DNA from: Afipia massiliensis | Lineage (GTDB): Bacteria; Pseudomonadota; Alphaproteobacteria; Rhizobiales; Xanthobacteraceae | Direction: 5' to 3' | Assembly: GCF_014203115.1 (NCBI RefSeq) | Contig: NZ_JACHIJ010000001.1 | Location: forward strand, 62,001 to 126,000 | Length of the DNA stretch: 64,000 bases | Shown here: positions 10,587-61,895 of the stretch, piece after piece | Numbering within the stretch: position 1 is the first letter of the stretch | How the letters are laid out: every line of letters starts with the position of its first letter | The notes under the pieces: generated by a model | Databases searched by the model: none | What the model was told of the DNA's origin: nothing | What the model saw: only the letters and a program-made list of their open reading frames with translations | Position numbers and translations under genes: made by a program

Positions 10587-11357
10587 TCAATCCACCTTCG
10601 CAGGCGTCTGCGACGCCGTCGCGACACGCGCAGCGTTGGCCATCTCGGCGAGCGCGTTGACCTTCTTCTGCGCGTCGCTGCCCGGCTGCACAACGCCCGC
10701 CGACATGATCAATGTCGCGGCGGCGTCGGTGCTCATATCGACTTCGATAAGCTTGGACTTCGGAACATAGAAGAAGAAGCCGGTGGTCGGGTTCGGCGCG
10801 CATGGCAGAAACACCGAGATGAACTCTTCGTTCTGCGGAAGCTTCGTACCAATCTCAACACTCGGCGGCTGGGAGATCAGCACGATCGACCACATTCCCG
10901 GTGACGGAAACTCGACGAGACCGACCTTGCGGAAGCTCGAGCCGTTGCCGGAGAACAGCGTCTCGAACACCTGCTTGAGGCCGCGATAGATCGCGCGCAC
11001 CACCGGCATGCGGCCGAGCAGGCTCTCGCCGAATTCAACCAGCGTTCGCCCGATCAGATTGGCGGCGAGGAATCCGAGAAAGGTCAGCGCAAGGAACGCG
11101 ACGATCAGGCCGTAGCCCGGCAGGCCGAACGGCAGATAGGTCTCGGGACGATAGACGACCGGCACGAACGGCCGCACGATCCCGTCGACCCACGTCACGA
11201 ACCACCAGATCAGGTAGATCGTAATCGCTATGGGCCCTGCAATGATCAGGCCGGTGAGAAAATAGCGACGCAGCCGCGCCATCGCACCGCGCGGTGCTTC
11301 CGGCGGCGGCACGGGCGGGACACCTCCCGGGATCATATTGGGCGTGGTCTCATTCAT
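10587..11357 (-). CDS. DUF502 family inner-membrane protein
   Basis: 256 residues. After a proline-rich cytoplasmic N-terminus (about 1-25) there are two long hydrophobic segments, FLTGLIIAGPIAITIYLIWW (about 33-52) and one near 80-102. The soluble C-terminal part holds the DUF502 hallmarks: GRMPVVRAIYRGLKQVFETL, a GLVEFPSPGMWSIV segment, and FLPCAPNPTTGFFFYVPK. The function of DUF502 is unknown. It lies downstream of glmS on the same strand with a 122-bp gap, so co-transcription is possible. Confidence 0.9.
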   Translation of the reverse strand: MNETTPNMIPGGVPPVPPPEAPRGAMARLRRYFLTGLIIAGPIAITIYLIWWFVTWVDGIVRPFVPVVYRPETYLPFGLPGYGLIVAFLALTFLGFLAANLIGRTLVEFGESLLGRMPVVRAIYRGLKQVFETLFSGNGSSFRKVGLVEFPSPGMWSIVLISQPPSVEIGTKLPQNEEFISVFLPCAPNPTTGFFFYVPKSKLIEVDMSTDAAATLIMSAGVVQPGSDAQKKVNALAEMANAARVATASQTPAKVD

Positions 11358-46419: not shown

Positions 46420-47030
46420 CCGGCGGATGAAGTAACCGACAAGAACTATCTACACGTCATGCCCGGCTTTATGCCGGGCATCCACGTCTGCTTTTGCCCG
46501 ACCGTCCGCAAGACGTGGATGGCCGGGACAAGCCCGGCCATGACGAATGGAAAAGCTACTTGGCGCAAAGGCCAAATGGTGACGAACTTCGCTGCAAAAG
46601 GCGAAAAGGCGACCGGATGGCGGCGCGCAAGCGGATCGGGATTCAGCCGGTGGCTTACGCGTGAACGACGTTCAGACCTTCACCGCCGTCGAACGCTTCG
46701 GCACGAACACCGCAGACACTATGCGCACGACGGTCGACACGACCTAACCATGCTCGGGTGAGCCCAAGCCTTACTGCTGACCTCGCTTCGCAACGGGTCG
46801 ACACTTGACGGCGAGATGCTTTCTCCAACAGTAAAGAATTGCATGACAAGTGAGGACTCCTCGACTGGCACTCCCAGCAACAATGCGGCGGCCTTTAACT
46901 CGGCCCATGCGATCTCATACGCTGAGGGGCCGCGGGCCTGAGTTTCAGAGACTGGGTGGGATACGCGTAGCGTGCAGTCATCCCGCCAGTCGCGTCAGGC
47001 GCATCAAGCAACTTGCAGCGCAACAGCGAC
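46420..47030. other. 611-bp intergenic region after trmFO
   Basis: It contains the palindromic repeat at 46455-46545. The remaining 485 bp give only short weak frames on both strands (for example 46655-46849 minus), with no recognisable product. It may be a decayed gene remnant at the border of the AT-rich insert that follows. Confidence 0.55.
46455..46545. repeat. Palindromic repeat, 'cgtcatgcccgg' family
   Basis: Ends CGTCATGCCCGG and CCGGCCATGACG, with an inner ATCCACGTCT/AGACGTGGAT pair and sub-hairpins GCCCGGC-tttat-GCCGGGC and GGCCGGG-acaag-CCCGGCC. The same design recurs at 63233-63319 and as a half copy at 27734-27759. Confidence 0.88.
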
Positions 47031-47357
47031 TTATCGCAGTTGCTTTTGGGGCTCGCTGCCTAACGACCAAGTTGTAACCGCGCCAGGAGATTTAGTGTTA
47101 ATCCATGTCCAAACCCATTCAGGCAACAGCCCTGCGGCAGCGGTCGTGTTGAAATTTGATACGAAAAAGCTGTCTTGGGTATCAATTAAAGGCCGTATCT
47201 TCAAATACAGGTCCCAGACGGTCTTGTCGCTATAGACCATCCATAGATGAGGACTGACGCGAATCCAGTCATCGCCGGTATCGGAAAATGCGGGTTCTAA
47301 ATCCCTCATCTTAGGAACGCCGGGGAAAATAAACGAGACGTGGTAAAAATTATTCAT
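47031..47357 (-). CDS. Small protein with Cas2/SinR-like ferredoxin-fold pattern
   Basis: 108 residues from ATG 47357, whose start overlaps the stop of the membrane-protein gene by 8 bp. The strand-helix order FYHVSFIFPG, WIRVSPHLWMVYSD, DLYLKIRPLIDTQDSFFVSN and a final LLPEWVWTWINTK resembles the SinR/Cas2-like group of small ferredoxin-fold proteins. An earlier in-frame start at 47414 is possible. GC content is clearly lower than in the neighbours, pointing to transfer. Function is unknown; the family link is my pattern judgement, not an established hit. Confidence 0.55.
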   Translation of the reverse strand: MNNFYHVSFIFPGVPKMRDLEPAFSDTGDDWIRVSPHLWMVYSDKTVWDLYLKIRPLIDTQDSFFVSNFNTTAAAGLLPEWVWTWINTKSPGAVTTWSLGSEPQKQLR

Positions 47358-47736
47358 CTCGCACACTTCTATGATCGATCGCTCTAGGCCCTCCACCAAC
47401 GTTCGGACCTTCAATTAGAATAGACTTATCCTTTGCGGCAGATTGATCGCGAAGGTGGTGGTAAAATTCGGCACTTCCGAGCAGTGCAGCTGCCGGATCC
47501 TTTTCGGCGAACCGAACCAAACGTTCCACGACATAAACAGCGAACAATAACAAAAAGCCACTGGCGCACGCAGCTTGTATGGGATGCGCCGAAAGCGCCC
47601 AACAGACTATTCCTATAGAAACAAACAGGGCGATCAAAACGATAGACAGATTTCCAATCAACCCGGGGCCAAGCTTAACCCTCTTGAACATCCCGCTGGC
47701 TGAAGCGAGAATATCTTCTGCTGATTTCTTCCCCAT
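47350..47736 (-). CDS. Small two-helix membrane protein, coupled to the Cas2/SinR-like gene
   Basis: 128 residues from ATG 47736. Two adjacent hydrophobic segments (IGNLSIVLIALFVSIGIVCW and QAACASGFLLLFAVYVVERL) form a hairpin in the membrane. A charged cytoplasmic tail follows (RFAEKDPAAALLGSAEFYHH). The N-terminus MGKKSAEDILASASGMFKR is amphipathic. The downstream gene starts inside its last codons, so the two are probably translated together. AT-rich relative to the window. No family is recognised. Confidence 0.6.
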   Translation of the reverse strand: MGKKSAEDILASASGMFKRVKLGPGLIGNLSIVLIALFVSIGIVCWALSAHPIQAACASGFLLLFAVYVVERLVRFAEKDPAAALLGSAEFYHHLRDQSAAKDKSILIEGPNVGGGPRAIDHRSVRDE

Positions 47737-47878
47737 TCGCTTAGTTTGCTCAGCTAACGCCGCAAATCCAGCGGAATCTCATCAGACAGGCGCAAATTTC
47801 GACAATCTCGTCCGGATTTCGCGCTCCGGAAACCTAACCACGTCAGCCCCTTGAATGGCTTCGGCCCTTATGGGCTGC

Positions 47879-48736
47879 TCACCCCCTGAACGGCTTCGCG
47901 CTGCTGGCACGCCATGTTGTCCAAAGCACGCCGAGCCGGGACGATGACGGCGGCGCGAACGGCTCGGATGTCTCAAGCCGCGTCAGTATCTTTCCAATCA
48001 CGGCAAGCGGCAGGAAAGCTAGACGCGCGGCCATCGGCGCGTCGGCAAGCATTGCCAATGCCTGATCCAGTTGAGCACGAGCTTCACGGCGCAGATGCGC
48101 CAGCGCGCTCTTCAGCGGCGCGCTCACCTGATGCAGGAAAACCTCCTCGGCAACGACGGCGTGAAGATTCGTCAGGTCGGCCGGCAAATAGAGTTGCCGA
48201 CGAGCAGCGTGGCGCGGCAGCGCCAGCATGACATCAACAAGCCCCTCCGCGATGCCTGCATGCTCGGCGAGGCGTGCAGTCTCCGGCGAATTCACGCCCA
48301 GCACCTTGGCACGCAGCGCGTACATCGCGGCAGCCGTATCGCGGCAATGCGCCTCCAACGCCGCCATGTCGGGCATCGGATCGTCATAAACATCGAACAC
48401 ATGTGCGTCGATCAACCGGGCGAACGCTTCAACGGGAAGATCGTAGAGAGCCATCGCCCGCAACAACTCCGCCGCGACCGGATTGCCCTCGACCGCGCCA
48501 TGGTCGGCAGTCTGACTGCCGTCCGTCAACGCGTCGCGCCACCATTGCAGGCGGATCTCGCCGGGCAGCGGCTGGCTGACGTGATCGCGAACATGTGCAA
48601 CCTCGGCATTGAATGCCGCGAGTGCAATCCATGCCCGCCGCGATTCCGGCGGCACGAACAGGCTCGCCGCATAGGTTCTAAAATCCTGCGCGCGCACCAG
48701 ATCCGTGCAAAACGCTTCGGCGGATGTTGCGCTCAT
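47879..48736 (-). CDS. Squalene/phytoene synthase family protein (NDUFAF6-like)
   Basis: 285 residues. The all-helical fold pattern has QWWRDALTD near 64-72 and a first aspartate region VFDVYDDPMPD. The second metal motif of true synthases (DxxxD before RGRxYLP) is replaced by GLVDVMLALPRHAARRQLYL, so prenyl-diphosphate condensation is doubtful. Human NDUFAF6, a complex I assembly factor, belongs to this non-enzymatic branch. The gene overlaps the DUF498 gene by 4 bp (ATGA) and so is translationally coupled to an NDUFAF3 homologue, which supports an assembly role. Confidence 0.85.
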   Translation of the reverse strand: MSATSAEAFCTDLVRAQDFRTYAASLFVPPESRRAWIALAAFNAEVAHVRDHVSQPLPGEIRLQWWRDALTDGSQTADHGAVEGNPVAAELLRAMALYDLPVEAFARLIDAHVFDVYDDPMPDMAALEAHCRDTAAAMYALRAKVLGVNSPETARLAEHAGIAEGLVDVMLALPRHAARRQLYLPADLTNLHAVVAEEVFLHQVSAPLKSALAHLRREARAQLDQALAMLADAPMAARLAFLPLAVIGKILTRLETSEPFAPPSSSRLGVLWTTWRASSAKPFRG

Positions 48737-51895: not shown

Positions 51896-51931
51896 CGAGA
51901 TAACCCGTCAGATTCGTGAAAGCGTTTGCAT

Positions 51932-52091
51932 CAGTGGAGTGGATTTGACATTCGCGACCAGCGTGCGACGGGGTGCAACGCGAATGTCAAATCCAAAACT
52001 CCACTGGAAATCAATTACCAGTGGTCCTTTGATTCTAATATTCGCAAGCTCTTCGCTGAGATGGGCTGCGAATGTTAGAATCGGACCACTG
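51932..52091. repeat. Mirrored double hairpin between yajC and secD
   Basis: Hairpin 3 (51932-52006) has arms CAGTGGAG...TTTGACATTCGCG with 3 extra bases in its right arm. Hairpin 4 (52019-52091) has arms CAGTGGTCC...CTAATATTCGCA with 3 extra bases (TTT) in its left arm. The spacer is 12 nt and the loops are 20-22 nt. The design equals that of 49109-49274, although the sequences differ. Confidence 0.88.
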
Positions 52092-52096
52092 AGGCG

Positions 52097-52450
52097 TTAG
52101 CTCGCGGCTGTCTCTTCCTTTGAATCCTTGGCAGGCTCGCCCTTCGTCCGCACGCCGGAGATCATCTGGCGCATCTGACGGATACGGACACCGTCGGAGA
52201 TTTCGACCTCGATCTGGTCGTCATCGACAACCTTGGTCACCTTGCCGACAAGGCCGCCGTTGGTGACGATGGTATCGCCGCGGCGGATGTTCTTCACCAG
52301 CTCCTGATGATCCTTCAGCTTCTTCTGCTGCGGCTTCAGAATCAGGAAGTACATGATGACGAAAATCAGTGCGAACGGCAGCAGCGACATCAGCATGCTG
52401 TTGGTATCACCGGCGCCGGCGGCTTGAGCAAAGGCAGGAGTAATGAACAT
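52097..52450 (-). CDS. yajC: Preprotein translocase subunit YajC
   Basis: 117 residues from ATG 52450, with a CGAGGA ribosome-binding site; the longer frame to 52480 is not needed. One membrane helix (LPFALIFVIMYFLILKPQQK) is followed by the conserved KKLKDHQELVKNIRRGDTIV and TNGGLVGKVTKVVDD blocks. It joins SecDF to form the accessory translocon complex. It is the first gene of the secDF run and divergent from the DUF815 gene. Confidence 0.96.
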   Translation of the reverse strand: MFITPAFAQAAGAGDTNSMLMSLLPFALIFVIMYFLILKPQQKKLKDHQELVKNIRRGDTIVTNGGLVGKVTKVVDDDQIEVEISDGVRIRQMRQMISGVRTKGEPAKDSKEETAAS

Positions 52451-52644: not shown

Positions 52645-53616
52645 ATGTCCAAAAAACCCAATAAAAAGGCCTCCAGGGCCGCCACGAAGGCGCGTCCCGG
52701 CAAGGCGATCAAAACCGCGACAAAACGCCCTGCTGCATCGGCCGATGCCGAGACCCAGGCCCGGATCGCGCTCGCGCTCGAGAGTATCGCCGCGAACCTG
52801 AACGCATCAGCGGCCAGACCGTCGACCCCCGATTCTCTCAAAAAGGCCGACGCCTTTGTCTGGCAGCCGAGCGGCCATCTGGTGCCGGTTCCAAAGGTCA
52901 GCCGCGTCGACCTCGGACTGCTCAAGGGCATCGACCGGATGCGCGACATCCTGATCGAGAACACCGAACGCTTTGCCACAGGCCTGCCCGCGAACAATGC
53001 CCTGCTATGGGGCGCGCGGGGCATGGGCAAGTCGTCGCTGGTCAAGGCGGCGCATGCCAACGTCAACGCCATGCCCAAGGTGCGAGGCCGGCTGAAGCTG
53101 ATCGAGATTCATCGCGAGGACATCGAAAGCCTGCCGCTTCTGATGTCGCTGCTGCGCGAATCCGATTTTCACTTCATCGTGTTCTGCGATGATCTGTCGT
53201 TCGACGGCAACGACGCATCGTACAAGTCGCTGAAGGCTGTTCTGGAAGGCGGCATCGAAGGCCGGCCCGACAATGTGATCCTGTACGCGACCTCAAACCG
53301 CCGCCATCTGCTGGCGCGCGACATGATCGAGAACGAGCGTTCGACCTCCATCAATCCCGGCGAAGCCGTCGAGGAAAAGGTGTCGCTGTCGGATCGCTTC
53401 GGCCTATGGCTCGGCTTCCACAAGTGCAGCCAGGACGAATATCTCGAGATGGTGCGCGGCTATTGCAAGCACTTCGGCGTCAAGATGCCCGACGATCAAT
53501 TGGAGCGCGAAGCGCTCGAATGGTCCACCACGCGCGGATCGCGGTCGGGTCGCGTCGCCTGGCAGTTCACGCAGGAAATCGCGGGACGGATGGGCGTCAA
53601 GCTCGCGGCTAAGTAA
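52645..53616 (+). CDS. DUF815 family AAA ATPase
   Basis: 323 residues. A basic, low-complexity N-terminus (MSKKPNKKASRAATKARPG) precedes an AAA-type ATPase: Walker A LLWGARGMGKSSLVKAAH and Walker B FIVFCDDLSFDGNDASY, then a sensor-like VILYATSNRRHLL. The function of DUF815 is not established. Its last 114 bp reappear in diverged form at 55022-55135, which marks this 3' end as the left border of an integration hotspot. Confidence 0.9.
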   Translation: MSKKPNKKASRAATKARPGKAIKTATKRPAASADAETQARIALALESIAANLNASAARPSTPDSLKKADAFVWQPSGHLVPVPKVSRVDLGLLKGIDRMRDILIENTERFATGLPANNALLWGARGMGKSSLVKAAHANVNAMPKVRGRLKLIEIHREDIESLPLLMSLLRESDFHFIVFCDDLSFDGNDASYKSLKAVLEGGIEGRPDNVILYATSNRRHLLARDMIENERSTSINPGEAVEEKVSLSDRFGLWLGFHKCSQDEYLEMVRGYCKHFGVKMPDDQLEREALEWSTTRGSRSGRVAWQFTQEIAGRMGVKLAAK

Positions 53617-53864
53617 TCCGCGAAGCCGCTACCGAAGCACGCGCAACAAGACCCCGCCTTTACCGATTTCGTGATCGAGTATCTCGGCTAAAACTGAGAC
53701 TCGAGAATCTCGGATCTGGGATCGAGCCCAAAATGCTGTATGCGCCTTAACGCTGCAATGCGTAACCGTTCACGCAAATAATTGACGAACCGAATGAACG
53801 TAGAGGCGGCCCACGCTTAGATTACGTGCGTGGCAATCCACGCAGGAACAGCTACATATAGCTC

Positions 53865-54926
53865 ATGGAAAAAACTCAAGAAGACAGCATCGGAATATTG
53901 AAAACGATTTGGAAGAAGAACGAGACGGGTGTTTGGGCTAGTCACGACCTAAAAGGTATTGATCTTAAGCCGCGAGAGGGTTTCACAAAAGATTATTTCA
54001 AGATCGAAAACGAAATCACCCTTATGACTCAAAGCCCGGGTGAGATTATGAATTTTTTTGCTACATTCGGCACCACTGAATTTTTAGTGCGGCAAAGTAT
54101 CGTTCCTATAGTGGCATGGAATGATGACGATGCAGAGATTCGCACAATCGGCACCGGATTCTTCATTAGTGCTTCTGGACTACTGATGACCGCGGCACAT
54201 GTTCTCCGTGATCCTGTTGATGAGAATTACACTAGCGTCACTTATGTCGATAAAAATTTGCACCGACTAGGTGAAAATCTGCATTTTGGCATTTTGCTGC
54301 CTGCCAACCCAGCCATGGCAAACGCCCCCTTCGAGATGCATCCGGTGATGCGAGAAGCTAAATGGTTTATGTGCCCATTTGAATGGACAACTCACTGGGG
54401 CAAAAATGTTGAGAGTCCGCTTCTGCATCAAAAACCTGAGTTTAAACTCGATCTCGATGTCGCGGTTTGTAAAGTAGCAGAACAATCATTAATCGGCCCA
54501 TACCAGCCGCTGAACATTGGCCTGCATAATCTCAAAGTTGGCGACCGTGCTGTAGCGATCGGATACCCAGAAATGAGGAATATTCGACGAGGCGGTGATG
54601 ATTACCAACCAGAATTAGTTGTTTCTGTTGGCTCTGTGACAAACATTCTCGCAGACAATATGACCGAGAAGCAGAACACAACACCGGGGCCAAACTTCGA
54701 ATTCAATGCCAAAATCCCTGGCAAAATGAGCGGCAGCCCTATTTTAGTTGGCGGGGGTATTATAACGAAGGGAGTTGTCAGCCGAAGTTGGCAGGATGAA
54801 AATCACGCTAGTGGATGCTTGATTGCACCCATAATGAATCTGCCAATAGTTGGCGAAAAAAGTCTCGTTGATATGATCAAAGCTGGCGAAGAAGGAATTG
54901 CTCAAATTATGGGAGTGGGTCTTTGA
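53865..54926 (+). CDS. Trypsin-like serine protease, probably horizontally acquired
   Basis: 353 residues, no signal peptide, so likely cytoplasmic. The chymotrypsin-fold triad is visible: His112 in LLMTAAHVL, Asp198 in KLDLDVAV, Ser289 in GKMSGSPIL, with the TGFFISASG strand before the histidine. An N-terminal extension of about 75 residues has no known domain. The gene is markedly AT-rich against its neighbours. It lies alone between the DUF815 gene and a scar of diverged flanking-gene ends. Stand-alone trypsin-like proteases occur in phage-defence loci, but no partner is seen here. Confidence 0.85.
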   Translation: MEKTQEDSIGILKTIWKKNETGVWASHDLKGIDLKPREGFTKDYFKIENEITLMTQSPGEIMNFFATFGTTEFLVRQSIVPIVAWNDDDAEIRTIGTGFFISASGLLMTAAHVLRDPVDENYTSVTYVDKNLHRLGENLHFGILLPANPAMANAPFEMHPVMREAKWFMCPFEWTTHWGKNVESPLLHQKPEFKLDLDVAVCKVAEQSLIGPYQPLNIGLHNLKVGDRAVAIGYPEMRNIRRGGDDYQPELVVSVGSVTNILADNMTEKQNTTPGPNFEFNAKIPGKMSGSPILVGGGIITKGVVSRSWQDENHASGCLIAPIMNLPIVGEKSLVDMIKAGEEGIAQIMGVGL

Positions 54927-54964
54927 TCGCGCTTCGCTACAGTAAATTATCCCATCCGCGCGCG

Positions 54965-55021
54965 CTACGCGCCGTTCAGAAATTGAAACGGGTCGATGGC
55001 TGAAGATCCCTTGTGGATCTT
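54965..55021 (-). pseudogene. Remnant: 3' end of a diverged M23/LysM gene
   Basis: Nineteen codons (minus strand) encode KIHKGSSAIDPFQFLNGA and a stop. They match the last 18 residues of the intact gene at 57803-59179 (EIRKGSSAVDPLQFLNGA). Eight of 57 bases differ, and the stop codon is TAG rather than TAA, so it comes from a related genome rather than a recent local duplication. Confidence 0.9.
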
Positions 55022-55135
55022 GAGCGCGAAGCGCTCGAATGGTCGACCACGCGCGGATCGCGCTCGGGCCGCGTCGCCTGGCAGTTCACGCAGGAAATCG
55101 CGGGACGGATGGGTGTGAAGCTCGCGACGGCGTAG
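55022..55135 (+). pseudogene. Remnant: 3' end of a diverged DUF815 gene
   Basis: The 114-bp segment aligns with 53503-53616, the 3' end of the intact DUF815 gene. In the first 105 bases five positions differ, all silent third-codon changes. The last two residues differ (TA against AK), and the stop is TAG rather than TAA. It directly joins the M23 remnant. The silent-only differences show it evolved as coding sequence elsewhere. Confidence 0.92.
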
Positions 55136-55141
55136 AGCACG

Positions 55142-56038
55142 CTAGATCGCGGTCAAGCGAACCCGCTCGTGCCCTGCTGACGAGTTGGGCCAGAAGCGTG
55201 ACTCGTCAACGATCAACCGGCCCAGTTCAGCAGCGCATGGCATCCGGTCGCCTTGCTTCGAGATCAAGACGTACTTTGCCTCCGGCAAAGGTGGCAGGCC
55301 GTCATTGCCATCAAGCACCGTCATCCAGGGTTCGATCTCCTCCTGGGAGAAAATCGACACGGCAAGCCCCGCTTGCACTGCCGCCCTCAGACCATGCTGG
55401 TTCGCCGACGTGAAGCCGACGTGCCAATCAATGCCGGACGCCGTGAGAGCCTCAATAGCCATCGCACGAAGCGCGCACGGCGGCGGCGATAGCGCGAATG
55501 GCATTGATGAATTCTGCGGGCGCTTGAAAGTCTCGGCGGCCGCCCAGACGAATTGCGTCTGACGAAGAACGATCCCGCCCGTTGCATCCGATCGGGTAAT
55601 CGCCACTGCAAGATCGAGTTCGCCGGCATCGACCTTGGCCCGAAGGTCCAGACAGACACTGACTGAAACCTCGAGCCGAACCGCAGGGTACTGGCGAGCG
55701 AACCGGCCAAGCAATTGCGGCAGCCGATCACCAATGAAGTTTTCCGGAACGCCCAGCCGGATGGCGCCCGAGGCAGTGGAGGAATGAAAGCGGCGCGTCA
55801 GCGCCTCCTGCCCCTGCAGAATCTGTTCGGCGTGGCGCAGAAAATCCTCGCCGTCTTCGGTCAGCGTTAGCTTGCGCGTGGTCCGGTACAGAAGCTGCCG
55901 CCCCACCTGCTCCTCCAGCCGTCGGATCTGATGACTGACGGCGGATTGGGTCAAATGCAGTCGTTGCGCCGCGCGCGTGAATCCGCCGGTCTCGCAGACA
56001 GCAACAAAGGCGCGAAGCAATGTGGGTTCAAAGTCCAT
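55142..56038 (-). CDS. LysR family transcriptional regulator
   Basis: 298 residues from ATG 56038; ATG 56047 is an alternative and neither has a clear ribosome-binding site. The N-terminal winged helix (MDFEPTLLRAFVAVCETGG, TRAAQRLHLTQSAVSHQIRR) is typical, with an effector-binding domain after about residue 90. It is divergent from the MFS transporter gene across 119 bp, the classic arrangement for a regulator of that gene. It forms the second cargo module of the DUF815-M23 hotspot. Confidence 0.94.
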   Translation of the reverse strand: MDFEPTLLRAFVAVCETGGFTRAAQRLHLTQSAVSHQIRRLEEQVGRQLLYRTTRKLTLTEDGEDFLRHAEQILQGQEALTRRFHSSTASGAIRLGVPENFIGDRLPQLLGRFARQYPAVRLEVSVSVCLDLRAKVDAGELDLAVAITRSDATGGIVLRQTQFVWAAAETFKRPQNSSMPFALSPPPCALRAMAIEALTASGIDWHVGFTSANQHGLRAAVQAGLAVSIFSQEEIEPWMTVLDGNDGLPPLPEAKYVLISKQGDRMPCAAELGRLIVDESRFWPNSSAGHERVRLTAI

Positions 56039-56157
56039 GGGCCACATATATGACGAACAGAACTGAAATCAATAAAATCAATTCATTTCCATCATGAAAG
56101 GATACCGCCCATATCCGTCAGCCCGTGCCGCCGACGTCCGCGTCGGGTTGAAAAGGA

Positions 56158-57720
56158 ATGTCCATGAGCGTCTCCCCCTCGGCCAGAAACACTGCCGCAC
56201 TGATCGGCGTGTGCCTGGCATCACTGATGTTCGGCCTCGAAATATCCAGCATCCCCGTCATCCTGCCGACCCTGGAAACGGCGCTGCCCGCGAATTTCAA
56301 GGATCTGCAGTGGATCATGAACGCCTACACGATCGCCTGCACCACGGTGCTGATGGCGACCGGCACCTTCGCTGACCGTTATGGCCGGAAACGCGTTTTC
56401 ATCACGACCACCATCGCCTTCGGCGTAACGTCGCTGATGTGCGGGCTGGCGCAGAGCGCATCGGTGCTTATCGCTGCCCGGTTTCTGCAGGGTCTTGCCG
56501 GCGGCGCCATGCTCACCTGCTCGATCGCTATCATCTCGCACCAGTATCAGGACGAACATGAGCGCGGCAGGGCCTTTACCGCCTGGGGCGTCATCAGCGG
56601 CATCGGCCTTGGCTTCGGCCCAATCATCGGCAGCATGATCGCCGCCGTGTCGAGCTGGCATTGGGTGTTTCTGGTTCACGTCCCGCTGACAGTTCTCGCC
56701 CTCGTACCCTCCGTCATTGGTATCCGTGAATCTCGCGATCCGCACGCCAAGCGACTGGATGGCTGGGGTATCGTAACGTTGACGATTGCTGTCTTCGGTC
56801 TGACTTATGTGATCACTCAGGGAACAGACCTTGGCAGAACCACTGCGATCGGGCTCGCTGCCGTTGCCTTTGGCAGCTTCGTCGCCTTCGTTCTCGTGGA
56901 GCGCAACACCGCGCAACCGATGTTCGACTTCTCGGTGTTCCGGATTCGGAAGTTCAGCGGCGCCATCATCGGCTGCATCGGCATGAACTTCTGCTACTGG
57001 CCGTTCATGATCTACCTGCCGATTTACTTCGAGGGTGGCCTTGGCCTCGACAGCAGGGCTGTTGGATTCTTGCTCCTGGCCTATACAATTCCGTTTCTGA
57101 TCCTGCCTCCTTTTGCAGACTATTTGCTCCGGCGTCACGGCGCACGCATCGTGATTCCGTTGGGCATGGCCATCATGGGGACCGGCTTTCTCGCCATGCG
57201 TCTCGGCAGCGGCTTTGAGCAGGCGAACTGGCTCACTGTGCTCCCCGGCGCGCTTCTCGCCGGCATCGGACTTGGCCTGACCAACACGTCAGTCACCAAT
57301 ACGACAACCGGTGCGGTCCCGAGCAACCGTGCAGGCATGGCATCCGGAATCGACATCAGCGCACGATTGATCTCGTTGGCCATCAACATCGCGGTGATGG
57401 GACTCATTCTGCTCGAAGCTATCCAATGGTCCCTGCCAGGCACACTCGTCGCCGCTCTCGACGGCCAGCAGTTGCGCGCGTTGGCCTCGACCATCGCCAC
57501 TGGAAACTTCGGCTCACTGCAGCAAACGTATCCGGTGCTATCCCTTCAGGACCCGTCCGGTGCCGCCGTTCACACGGCGCTGGTCAAGGGCTTCGGCTGG
57601 GTGATGCTGTATGGCGGCATCGGCGCGTGGATTTTGGCCGCGATCAGCTTCCTGATCTTCGGCTCCGAAGGCGCGACAGCGAAATCGGGCCTGGCCTGTG
57701 CCATCGACGCGGCCGAATAG
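56158..57720 (+). CDS. MFS drug-efflux transporter, DHA2 (EmrB/QacA) family
   Basis: 520 residues with about 14 membrane helices. ATG 56164 has the better spacing to AAAAGGA and may be the true start. The family motifs are visible: motif A region GTFADRYGRKRVF between helices 2 and 3, the helix-4 segment LIAARFLQGLAGGAML, and motif C-like GIGLGFGPIIGSM in helix 5. It probably exports toxic compounds by proton antiport and is likely controlled by the divergent LysR gene. It ends at a bidirectional terminator before the M23 gene. Confidence 0.93.
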   Translation: MSMSVSPSARNTAALIGVCLASLMFGLEISSIPVILPTLETALPANFKDLQWIMNAYTIACTTVLMATGTFADRYGRKRVFITTTIAFGVTSLMCGLAQSASVLIAARFLQGLAGGAMLTCSIAIISHQYQDEHERGRAFTAWGVISGIGLGFGPIIGSMIAAVSSWHWVFLVHVPLTVLALVPSVIGIRESRDPHAKRLDGWGIVTLTIAVFGLTYVITQGTDLGRTTAIGLAAVAFGSFVAFVLVERNTAQPMFDFSVFRIRKFSGAIIGCIGMNFCYWPFMIYLPIYFEGGLGLDSRAVGFLLLAYTIPFLILPPFADYLLRRHGARIVIPLGMAIMGTGFLAMRLGSGFEQANWLTVLPGALLAGIGLGLTNTSVTNTTTGAVPSNRAGMASGIDISARLISLAINIAVMGLILLEAIQWSLPGTLVAALDGQQLRALASTIATGNFGSLQQTYPVLSLQDPSGAAVHTALVKGFGWVMLYGGIGAWILAAISFLIFGSEGATAKSGLACAIDAAE

Positions 57721-57750
57721 CGCCGTTGCAGGTTTGAACCGTATGCAAAC

Positions 57751-57781
57751 AAAATCCCCCGGCTTTCGCCAGGGGGATTTC
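57751..57781. terminator. Bidirectional terminator between MFS and M23 genes
   Basis: AAATCCCCC-GGC-tttc-GCC-a-GGGGGATTT, with A and T runs on the two sides, lies between convergent stop codons. Confidence 0.88.
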
Positions 57782-57802
57782 TCTAGACTTCAGCGTAAAA
57801 CC

Positions 57803-59179
57803 TTATGCGCCGTTCAGGAATTGAAGCGGGTCGACGGCTGAAGATCCCTTGCGAATCTCGAAGTGAAGCTGCGGCGACCCCACCTCTCCCGTCTGACCCG
57901 ATTTGGCAATGATCTGGCCGCGCTTAATAGTATCCCCGCGCTTCACCATCAGTTCACTCGCGTGGGCATACGCGGTGACATAACCGTTGGAGTGCCGCAC
58001 CAGGATCAGATTGCCATAACCTTTGAGTTCGCTGCCCGAGTAGGCAACCACGCCATCTTCAGCGGCCTTGATCGGCGTGCCTTCGGGAACGGCGACGTTG
58101 ATGCCGTCGTTCTGTTTGCCGTTGGCCTTCGCGCCGTATGCAGTGATGACGCGTCCGCGCACCGGCCAGCGGAATGTCGGCACGGCATTGGTCGCGTCAG
58201 CCGCTTTCACAGGTGACTGGGCTTCAGGCAAATCGGCCGCAGCCGTTTCGCTCGCAACGCGCGCTTTCTGCTGAGGCTCGGCCGACGCAACTGCGACGGG
58301 CTTGGCCGCAGGCGCTGCAACGGCAGGCTTCGGCGCTTCCGCGACAACTTGCGAAGCAGGAGCCGCCGCGACAGCCTTGCCGCCCGGAATGTTGATCTTG
58401 GTGCCGATCTTGAGCTGTGTCGTCACCGGAATATTGTTGGCCGCGGCCAGTTGCGCAGGCGCGATGTTGTGACGGCGCGACAGGTTCATCAGCGTGTCGC
58501 CGGACTTGACGACATGAACGCTCGCGGGAAGCCCCGCGGCAACCTTGGTGCTCGGCGCATTCGACAGCGCCGGAGGATTGGCCTGCGCCATGCGGCGCGG
58601 AATGACGAGCTGCTGACCCGGCTGAAGGACACGTGGTCCGCCGTAGCCGTTAGCTTTCAGAATTTCCGACGACGGCACATTGTAGCGCTTTGAGATGACA
58701 TCGAGCGTATCAGCCGTACCGACGATGATCGTGGTGCCACCCTCGCGGCTATATCCCGAGGTCGCCGCTACCGAGCGCGGCGTCGCCGAAGCCGTTGTTT
58801 CGATCGGAGATGACGACGGAGGCGCGTAGGACGCCATGCCCCTGCCGCCACCTGACGTGCCGACAGCCGCCGGCTGAGACAGCGGCGCGGACACGATCGG
58901 CGCAGAATGAGGCCGGCTGTATTGCGGCAGCTCGCGAGGCTGCTGATAAGATGACTGTTGCTGATAAGCGGGCTGCTGCTGAGGCGCGCCGCGATAATTG
59001 TTGGGGACGGACCCGGTCGACTCCGGCGCGGAGCGCGAAGTGAAGGGGTTCGAAAACGTGGTGTCTGAAAATCGCGTCTGAGTGTCGGCGCTACATCCGC
59101 CAAAACCGACCGAGACGAGCGTCAGGACCACAAAATGCGGTGCGTGACGCGAGTTTATCAACTCGACAAAGCGGGACAT
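57803..59179 (-). CDS. LysM / M23 (LytM) lipoprotein, NlpD/EnvC-like, degenerate active site
   Basis: 458 residues. A lipobox ends at C29 (GFGGC). A Gln/Ser/Pro-rich region precedes two LysM domains (DTLDVISKRYNVPSSEILKA near 157-176 and SGDTLMNLSRRHNIAPAQLA near 226-245), then a C-terminal LytM domain. The usual HxxxD zinc motif reads QNDGINVA, and only the later YAHASEL and LHFEI histidines remain, so it is probably a non-enzymatic amidase activator like NlpD. It lies in the usual tatC-serS-surE-pcm cluster. A diverged copy of its 3' end sits in the hotspot. Confidence 0.9.
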   Translation of the reverse strand: MSRFVELINSRHAPHFVVLTLVSVGFGGCSADTQTRFSDTTFSNPFTSRSAPESTGSVPNNYRGAPQQQPAYQQQSSYQQPRELPQYSRPHSAPIVSAPLSQPAAVGTSGGGRGMASYAPPSSSPIETTASATPRSVAATSGYSREGGTTIIVGTADTLDVISKRYNVPSSEILKANGYGGPRVLQPGQQLVIPRRMAQANPPALSNAPSTKVAAGLPASVHVVKSGDTLMNLSRRHNIAPAQLAAANNIPVTTQLKIGTKINIPGGKAVAAAPASQVVAEAPKPAVAAPAAKPVAVASAEPQQKARVASETAAADLPEAQSPVKAADATNAVPTFRWPVRGRVITAYGAKANGKQNDGINVAVPEGTPIKAAEDGVVAYSGSELKGYGNLILVRHSNGYVTAYAHASELMVKRGDTIKRGQIIAKSGQTGEVGSPQLHFEIRKGSSAVDPLQFLNGA

Positions 59180-60602: not shown

Positions 60603-60725
60603 CCTCATTTGAGAGGTTTGAAAAAGTTCCTGCTCATGGAACTTTTAGATCGGGCGTGAGTTTGCGCGCTGGATAATTATGTTATTCGTATAGCAAGTAG
60701 TCCAGATTTGTCATTTGGGGGACGA

Positions 60726-61109
60726 ATGCCGGGCAATTTCAAAGCAGGATCGCGGACGTCGATTCTGCTGGTCGAAGACGAAGTCATGATCCGCATGATG
60801 GTTGCCGACATGCTCGAGGAGCTTGGCTACACGATTTCCGGTGAAGCAGGCGACATCGACGAAGGCATCAGGCTCGTGCAGGCAGTCGACTTCGACATCG
60901 CCATTCTCGACGTCAACGTCAACGGCAGGGTGATCACACCGGTCGCCGAAGCCGTTCAGATGCGCGGCCTCCCCTTTGTGTTCGCGACCGGCTACGGCGC
61001 GCAGGGTCTTCCGGAAAAGTTCCGCGACCGCCCGACGCTACAAAAGCCTTTCCAGATCGAAACGCTGGCGCGCACGATCGAGACGGTTCTGAAGGGCATC
61101 GCGGCGTAG
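60726..61109 (+). CDS. Single-domain response regulator
   Basis: 127 residues from ATG 60726, after a GGGGG ribosome-binding site; an upstream TTG at 60708 is rejected. It is a receiver domain only: acidic pair in VEDEVMIRMM, phosphorylatable Asp62 in AILDVNVNG, a conserved Thr in FATGYG and Lys in LQKPFQ. With no output domain it probably acts by protein contact or phosphotransfer. No histidine kinase is nearby. It is convergent with surE, with 18 bp between stops. Confidence 0.93.
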   Translation: MPGNFKAGSRTSILLVEDEVMIRMMVADMLEELGYTISGEAGDIDEGIRLVQAVDFDIAILDVNVNGRVITPVAEAVQMRGLPFVFATGYGAQGLPEKFRDRPTLQKPFQIETLARTIETVLKGIAA

Positions 61110-61127: not shown

Positions 61128-61895
61128 TTATTTCAGAACGCCCTTCAGCTTTTCCGAAAACGCGACATCGGTGCGGTCCAGCCGCAGCGGCGTGACCGAT
61201 ACCAGCTTCGCGGCGAGTGCTGCGAGATCGGTCCCCTCCGCAGGCACTTCCAGCATCGCAAGCCGCTCGAAGCCGATCCAGTAATACGGATTGCCGCGCC
61301 CGTCCTGGCGGCTGTCGATTTTCAGGAAACCCTGATTGCGCTTGCCTTGTCGCGTGACGGCAATGCCCTTCACCTCGTCCGGCAGACATGCGGGAAAATT
61401 GACGTTGACCACCGTGTCACGCGGCACGCCAAGCTTCATCACGTTGCGGATCACATCAGGACCGAATTTCAGCGCAGTGTCCCACAGCGGCTTGTTGCGC
61501 GTCTCCATGGAAAATTCCTGCGACAGCGCGAACGACGGCAGACCGAGGATGGTGCCTTCCAGCGCGCCGGCGATGGTGCCCGAATACACAACGTCTTCGG
61601 CGGCGTTGCGGCCCTTGTTGACGCCGGACAGCACGAGGTCCGGCCCCTTCTCGCCGAGGATGTGGCGCGATCCCATGATGACGCAATCGGTCGGCGTGCC
61701 TCTGACAGCAAAGTGACGCGGCCCGACTTCGCGCAACCGCAGCGGATCGTTCAGCGACAATGAATGCGACACGCCGGACTGATCGAGTTCGGGCGCAACA
61801 ACCCAGACGTCGTCCGACAATTGCTTTGCAATCTCCTCAAGGACCTTGAGGCCTGGCGCGTGAATGCCGTCGTCGTTGGTGCAGAGAATTCGCAT
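61128..61895 (-). CDS. surE: 5'-nucleotidase SurE
   Basis: 255 residues. The metal-binding start MRILCTNDDGIHAPGL and the SGVSHSLSL and LVLSGVNKGRNAAEDVVYSG blocks are typical. SurE removes phosphate from nucleoside monophosphates and is linked to stationary-phase survival, often beside pcm. It follows serS by 7 bp on the same strand, indicating an operon. Confidence 0.97.
   Translation of the reverse strand: MRILCTNDDGIHAPGLKVLEEIAKQLSDDVWVVAPELDQSGVSHSLSLNDPLRLREVGPRHFAVRGTPTDCVIMGSRHILGEKGPDLVLSGVNKGRNAAEDVVYSGTIAGALEGTILGLPSFALSQEFSMETRNKPLWDTALKFGPDVIRNVMKLGVPRDTVVNVNFPACLPDEVKGIAVTRQGKRNQGFLKIDSRQDGRGNPYYWIGFERLAMLEVPAEGTDLAALAAKLVSVTPLRLDRTDVAFSEKLKGVLK

Follow-up and report, generated by a model that had tools for sequence, protein, structure and literature searches.

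A core-gene scar and apparently stacked cargoes between the DUF815 and M23 genes of Afipia massiliensis

Hotspots of horizontal gene transfer that lack mobile elements have been described as showing more recombination in the core genes that flank them (Oliveira and colleagues 2017, PMC5635113). The locus described here, from one strain of Afipia massiliensis, lies between the convergent 3' ends of a DUF815 ATPase-like gene and a LysM/M23 peptidase gene, within a 64,000-nt stretch of DNA that we call the window. It is a clear case of this known kind of gene-exchange hotspot: as in the published examples, the same core borders enclose a high turnover of unrelated cargo, the interval holds no integrase, and a border gene bears possible signs of allele exchange. 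It differs in that the published hotspots were defined within species pangenomes, whereas our comparison runs across species, with one genome for each. Moreover, the published model is one of swapping by double recombination, whereas here cargo appears to have been added and a scar left behind, and only DUF815, not M23, shows excess divergence. No paper on this particular locus was found in the open-licence literature; the two papers there that mention DUF815 both name Acinetobacter in title or abstract.

In the immunity arrays of the Vibrio cholerae type VI secretion system, modules are displaced sequentially and leave 3' remnants, and homology-facilitated illegitimate recombination has been proposed to account for them (PMC5361080). 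There, as here, a new module enters beside a conserved anchor and the old 3' part is shifted away; the arrays, however, consist of displaced effector ends and immunity genes of one system, whereas our locus combines unrelated cargoes with the tails of two core genes. In homology-facilitated illegitimate recombination the recipient usually loses DNA and the junction usually has 3-10 bp of homology (PMC3240628; the process is also covered in PMC2884548); three of four E. coli clones had no junction homology (PMC3240628). The likeness to our locus is that probably one end was homologous and the other non-homologous. A recipient deletion of similar size is usual in that process but not required; here there is none, and part of DUF815 is duplicated.

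The scar and the displaced DUF815 end

The initial annotation, made from the sequence letters alone, had given the order of genes as DUF815, protease, scar, LysR, MFS and M23. Profile matches and coordinates confirm this order, which is as follows (L numbers denote loci of relatives, G numbers genomes):

52645..53616, plus strand: DUF815 ATPase-like gene, upstream border (PF05673, E 1e-105); its 3' end is read as incoming, which would make the gene a hybrid
53617..53864, no strand: intergenic DNA of the insert, GC 52.8%
53865..54926, plus strand: Trypsin_2-type (trypsin-like) serine protease, a single-gene cargo (PF13365, E 3e-13; GC 45.2%)
54965..55019, minus strand: 3'-end remnant of an M23 gene with its own stop, 88% identical to the resident M23 over 58 bp and 91% to L037; peptide given below
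55019..55023, no strand: fusion point of the two remnants, with at most about 2 clear shared bases (CT), from the sequences
55019..55135, plus strand: 3'-end remnant of a DUF815 gene with its own stop (E 5e-51 to the L114 tail; 5 of 5 diagnostic sites as in L114 and L034), read as the native end in its old position beside LysR
55142..56047, minus strand: LysR-type regulator, taken as older cargo (PF00126, PF03466); same place in L114, L034, L035, L036 and L037
56158..57720, plus strand: MFS transporter, taken as older cargo (PF07690, E 5e-50); same place in the same five loci
57803..59179, minus strand: LysM/M23 peptidase gene, downstream border (PF01551, E 8e-32)

The scar is real and has the structure first attributed to it: at 54965-55019, on the minus strand, lies an M23 3' end, to which a DUF815 3' end is fused at 55019-55135 on the plus strand, and each of the two has its own stop codon. 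The minus-strand peptide, IHKGSSAIDPFQFLNGA, ends at a stop at 54965-54967, and its counterpart in the resident M23 gene is IRKGSSAVDPLQFLNGA, likewise followed by a stop; the plus-strand peptide, LEREALEWSTTRGSRSGRVAWQFTQEIAGRMGVKLATA, ends at a TAG codon at 55133-55135. A 301-base query containing the scar had, besides itself, two matches only at E <= 0.001 in its own genome; the scar matches the intact DUF815 gene at 95% over 105 bp (E 4e-42) and the intact M23 gene at 88% over 58 bp (E 7e-14). When 155 intervals were scanned with the border-gene tails of relatives (all but L043 serving as queries), the window's best matches had E values of 5e-51 for DUF815 and 7e-18 for M23, against 2.6e-4 for the best match in the control, the same 155 intervals with their sequence reversed. 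The fusion, at 55019-55020, is non-homologous, with about 0-2 shared bases. The sequence directly downstream of the DUF815 stop, a candidate for a third gene end, matched nothing above chance in the loci compared.

Which of the two DUF815 tails is the native one decides how the scar is to be read. The scar copy and the resident tail differ at 7 of 102 aligned positions, and five of the differing sites fall in a 96-nt stretch that was compared site by site. At all five, both closest relatives of the window locus, L114 and L034, match the scar. Over the whole alignment the scar tail differs from L114, and from L034, at 3/102 positions, as opposed to 10/102 for the intact tail; being nearer to these relatives (3/102) than to the intact tail beside it (7/102), it forms with the latter a pair of copies that are not each other's closest relatives. 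The scar tail also adjoins LysR, as the intact DUF815 tails of relatives do: the order DUF815-LysR-MFS-M23 is found in L114 (genome G065), L035, L036 and L037, and in L034 with a GrpB gene in addition, and the protease occurs in none of these loci. Because the five sites agree with the relatives and the tail stands beside LysR, we take the scar's DUF815 half to be the native end, displaced. What probably came in as one piece is the 3' end now on the intact DUF815 gene, followed by the intergenic DNA, the AT-rich protease and the M23 tail. LysR-MFS is the older cargo of the clade, the nearest relatives having DUF815-LysR-MFS-M23 without the protease. Among the loci with remnants, it is for the window only that the order of cargoes is settled.

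This turns around the polarity assumed in the initial annotation, in which the scar carried the diverged copies: it is the 3' end of the intact gene that looks foreign. The same annotation had reasoned that scar halves closest to the resident lineage would point to local duplication. The DUF815 half is indeed closest to its own lineage, but as a displaced original end and not as a local duplicate, and the M23 half is not (88% to the resident gene versus 91% to L037).

The distribution of these differences also bears on the idea that a short linear fragment closed into a circle, M23 end to DUF815 end, and was integrated by one crossover in the DUF815 tail. Such an event would yield direct repeats of the DUF815 tail without any deletion, and both circularization and the single crossover have been described for E. 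coli (PMC3240628). Already at the first diagnostic site, however, the scar has the native state and the intact tail the foreign one, and the same holds on either side of an identical run of 44 bp; a crossover would therefore fit only within the repeat's first few bases. We regard this route as improbable.

A proposed history for the insert

The protease has a foreign composition and a sporadic presence. Its GC content is 45.2%, compared with 60.5% for the window, and relatives of it occur in 8 of 390 other genomes of the family (9 of 391 with the window's own genome). With the insert DNA as query, matches were obtained in 6 of 380 other family genomes; among 29 genomes of the same genus the other matches were to M23 tails only, with no protease, and the matches listed in the protease search of family genomes include no relative in another genome of the genus. 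The intergenic segment 53617..53864 had no match above chance in the loci compared and matched only itself in its own genome. The contexts examined, around seven of these eight protease relatives (two of them cut by contig ends), had no match to DUF815 or M23. Tblastn searches for a plasmid or phage source covered 72,556 plasmid and 50,697 phage records and returned no match, and no relative was confirmed in viral contigs. A role in defence finds weak PADLOC matches only, the best at E 1.5e-6.

The initial annotation had proposed that two cargoes with different histories were stacked by recombination in the flanks. The different histories are supported. Recombination in the flanks alone would swap cargoes and not stack them: two homologous crossovers would replace LysR-MFS, so that stacking calls for a non-homologous join or for a history in two steps. 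We judge it somewhat better than an even bet that a one-sided homologous recombination was combined with a non-homologous join, without an integrase. The ancestral locus of the strain would have been DUF815-LysR-MFS-M23. A fragment from a relative with the arrangement DUF815-protease-M23, brought in by some DNA carrier, would have paired with the resident DUF815 region, and a presumably RecA-dependent crossover would have taken place in or upstream of DUF815. In the same, supposedly single, event the other end of the fragment, 55 nt inside M23, would have been attached to the resident DUF815 gene at a point about 117 nt short of the gene's end, with no real homology between the two. This would leave an intact hybrid DUF815 gene, then the protease and an M23 tail, and after these the native DUF815 tail, displaced but still adjoining LysR-MFS. 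Matches to Ku, GTA_TIM and ComEC are present in the window's genome, where import and end joining are possible in principle. The locus looks like a readable fossil of one gene-acquisition event, whose order can be argued from sequence because both ends of the presumed import are recorded as core-gene tails. It suggests a way in which hotspots without an integrase, for which swapping is the usual explanation, could build up cargo as well.

A possible sign of exchange at DUF815 comes from the border genes. Between the window and L114, differences amount to 37/1190 in SecD, 4/381 in YajC, 43/1377 in M23 and 22/654 in PCMT; in DUF815 before its tail they reach 53/857 (the sum of two parts). L114 and L034 differ at 58/857 positions in DUF815 and 21/1190 in SecD, and the window and L035 at 63/857 and 121/1190, respectively. 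DUF815 is thus slower than SecD between the deeper lineages yet faster within the close trio, which suggests that its alleles have been exchanged. Within the trio, LysR and MFS too have diverged further than the outer genes.

Several observations weigh against this reconstruction. The difference between 3 and 10 mismatches, taken alone, gives a Fisher P of 0.08. M23 has no excess divergence like that of DUF815, and DUF815 itself is not unique in the window: at a median identity per 500-base bin of 94.4% to G065 and 89.4% to G188, in 23 of the 115 bins the lead of G065 over G188 is 1 point or less, so that several other stretches resemble DUF815 in this. Divergence alone does not locate the crossover in DUF815, because L114 and L034 also differ at 58/857. 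A donor allele with DUF815-protease-M23 was not found. Finally, retention of both LysR-MFS and the native DUF815 tail means that the recipient lost nothing, and a duplication with little junction homology departs from the recipient deletion and 3-10 bp of homology that are usual in such recombination.

The same final structure could have been reached in the reverse order. The protease would first have replaced LysR-MFS by ordinary recombination, and a sister strain would then have supplied LysR-MFS again, on an imported fragment that had its anchor in M23 and its other end fused within the 3' end of the resident M23. The LysR-MFS alleles of the window and L114 are more alike than those of other pairs, in keeping with such a return; this sequence, which takes one event more than the favored model, seems to us distinctly unlikely.

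Site-specific integrative elements typically rebuild the end of a gene and displace the native end, and one could ask whether the DUF815 3' end has served as an attachment site for such an element. There is no integrase model either in the window's interval or in the 40 of 50 cargo clusters that were scanned by representative; the cargoes are mutually unrelated, and the M23 tail of the insert would be left unexplained. Moreover, in the seven contexts compared, protease relatives have no common neighbors except one weak pair. An integrative element is accordingly very hard to credit here.

Cargo turnover and remnants in related genomes

The DUF815-M23 interval was surveyed in the 80 best named matches, in 116 regions chosen from DUF815 and motif listings, and in the window, a set that is not a random sample. 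A DUF815 gene with its stop was present in 196; removal of exact duplicates left 183, of which 174 had M23 within reach and nine, without M23 in the stretch examined, were set aside. Exclusion of L148, whose interval is a frame artefact and whose “cargo” is DUF815 itself, left 173 loci, window included. DUF815 is widespread, matching at E <= 1e-60 in 281 of 296 family genomes. The median interval is 176 bp (174 loci), but it exceeds 500 bp in 57 of the 173 loci and 1,000 bp in 49. These intervals form 32 distinct layouts with 39 cargo clusters of at least 150 aa (by a simple open reading frame call), and the number of layouts implies that many events were involved. The cargoes are unrelated to each other; labels include glycosyl hydrolase 3, histidine kinase, subtilase autotransporter, sulfatase, porin, cobalamin-independent methionine synthase, phytochrome kinase, chromate transporter, MlrC, YkuD, TauE and GrpB. 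The Pfam scan covered representatives of 40 of the 50 cargo clusters, the other 10 being small, and found no integrase model among them. The statement in the initial annotation that no integrase or transposase is in view holds for the window's interval (of seven window proteins scanned, none matched such a model), but some relatives are exceptions: IS110-type transposase genes lie in at least three of the 57 long intervals (L129, L268 and L288).

Neighboring intervals are long less often. In the same loci the YajC-DUF815 interval exceeds 500 bp in 1 of 178 and the M23-PCMT interval in 15 of 165, the latter count being probably too high because it comes mostly from distant-lineage loci with a partial M23 match. 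A nearby convergent pair of genes served as the fairest control:

60708..61109, plus strand: response-regulator-like gene, labelled from its own sequence
61128..61895, minus strand: gene that we take, from its sequence, to be SurE-like

The interval of this pair exceeds 500 bp in 8 of 132 loci. Both intervals are present in 131 loci: the DUF815-M23 interval alone is long in 48 of these, the control alone in 3, both in 5 and neither in 75 (sign test P 2e-11, a value that overstates the case, as the genomes share ancestry). The comparison used a single convergent control pair. The variation in cargo that the initial annotation predicted among relatives is therefore present, and much larger than at the nearby pair. 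These counts support the view that the DUF815-M23 interval is a cargo hotspot of Afipia and relatives; in our reading it works mostly without an integrase.

Remnants comparable to the scar occur elsewhere. In L115 and L116 a DUF815 tail lies between a YkuD-type and a TauE-type gene (L115 also has an antidote-like gene), and in L156 and L158 between an outer-membrane-protein-type gene and a BTAD/hydrolase gene, all these labels being those of cluster representatives. The L116 match is weak alone (E 0.001) and agrees in place with that of L115. For M23, only the window and L141 have remnants that passed the scan, apart from weak matches in L085 and L145. Weak tail matches in L071, L085, L145 (two), L151 and L239, and one on the reverse strand in the window, were treated as chance, though the match of L239, at E 7.5e-5, outscores even the best of the reversed controls. 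A motif scan, too strict in that it matched 96 of 391 genomes, found a second copy at the locus in G150 only, besides the window; the second motif match of G311 is on another contig.

L141 carries a tandem copy with an M23-DUF815 fusion, about 298 bp apart and without cargo, and for both tails, DUF815 and M23, its copies are closest to one another. Transformation has been described as a cause of tandem duplications (PMC3784515), and L141 resembles these in its direct tandem copies with a new junction; the window departs from them, since its copies are not each other's closest relatives. L141 lends substance to a two-step history in which a tandem duplication running from the DUF815 tail to the M23 tail first makes the fusion, and an ordinary double homologous recombination then exchanges the cargo of the DUF815-proximal copy for the protease. 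The second crossover would have to fall inside the 55-nt M23 remnant, and a duplicated LysR-MFS was seen in no genome among the loci examined. This history strikes us as a minor but serious contender, on the unlikely side. The remnants and the cargo-free duplication in other lineages make the one-sided recombination that we favor for the window testable.

It is tempting to speculate further that imported genes dock repeatedly at the convergent DUF815 and M23 3' ends and accumulate there one by one, with no integrase involved, each newcomer rebuilding the DUF815 end and pushing the old end and the older cargo away. This would be a recombination-driven analogue of cassette accumulation in integrons, arisen independently in at least three lineages (window, L115/L116 and L156/L158). 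We consider so broad a reading doubtful. If it were true, only scars with short, diverged repeats would survive, longer repeats recombining and deleting the cargo. The DUF815-end remnants in these loci measure at most about 120 nt, and longer direct repeats may have been lost by recombination.

A few loci have unusual borders or contents. In L140, L101, L091 and L075 no M23 match lies within about 10-11 kb downstream of DUF815, which may reflect larger insertions or rearranged borders. The 6,013-bp interval of L084 (10856-16868) unites LysR-like genes, an MFS gene and a YkuD-type gene that are found apart in other Afipia; no tail remnant in it passed the scan. In L043 (about 11130-11143) the DUF815 frame runs into the M23 3' end, so that the convergent genes overlap (interval -14 bp).

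Two further segments of the window deserve mention. The segment around 46500-48000 finds little or nothing that matches it in G065 and G188, in the 80-kb stretches that correspond, and is probably another variable place. Between SecD and YajC, at 51925-52100, lies an element of about 160 bp, rich in palindromes and different from L114 and L034; it has 33 matches in its own genome, many of them on both strands of one place, which amount to about 20 places.

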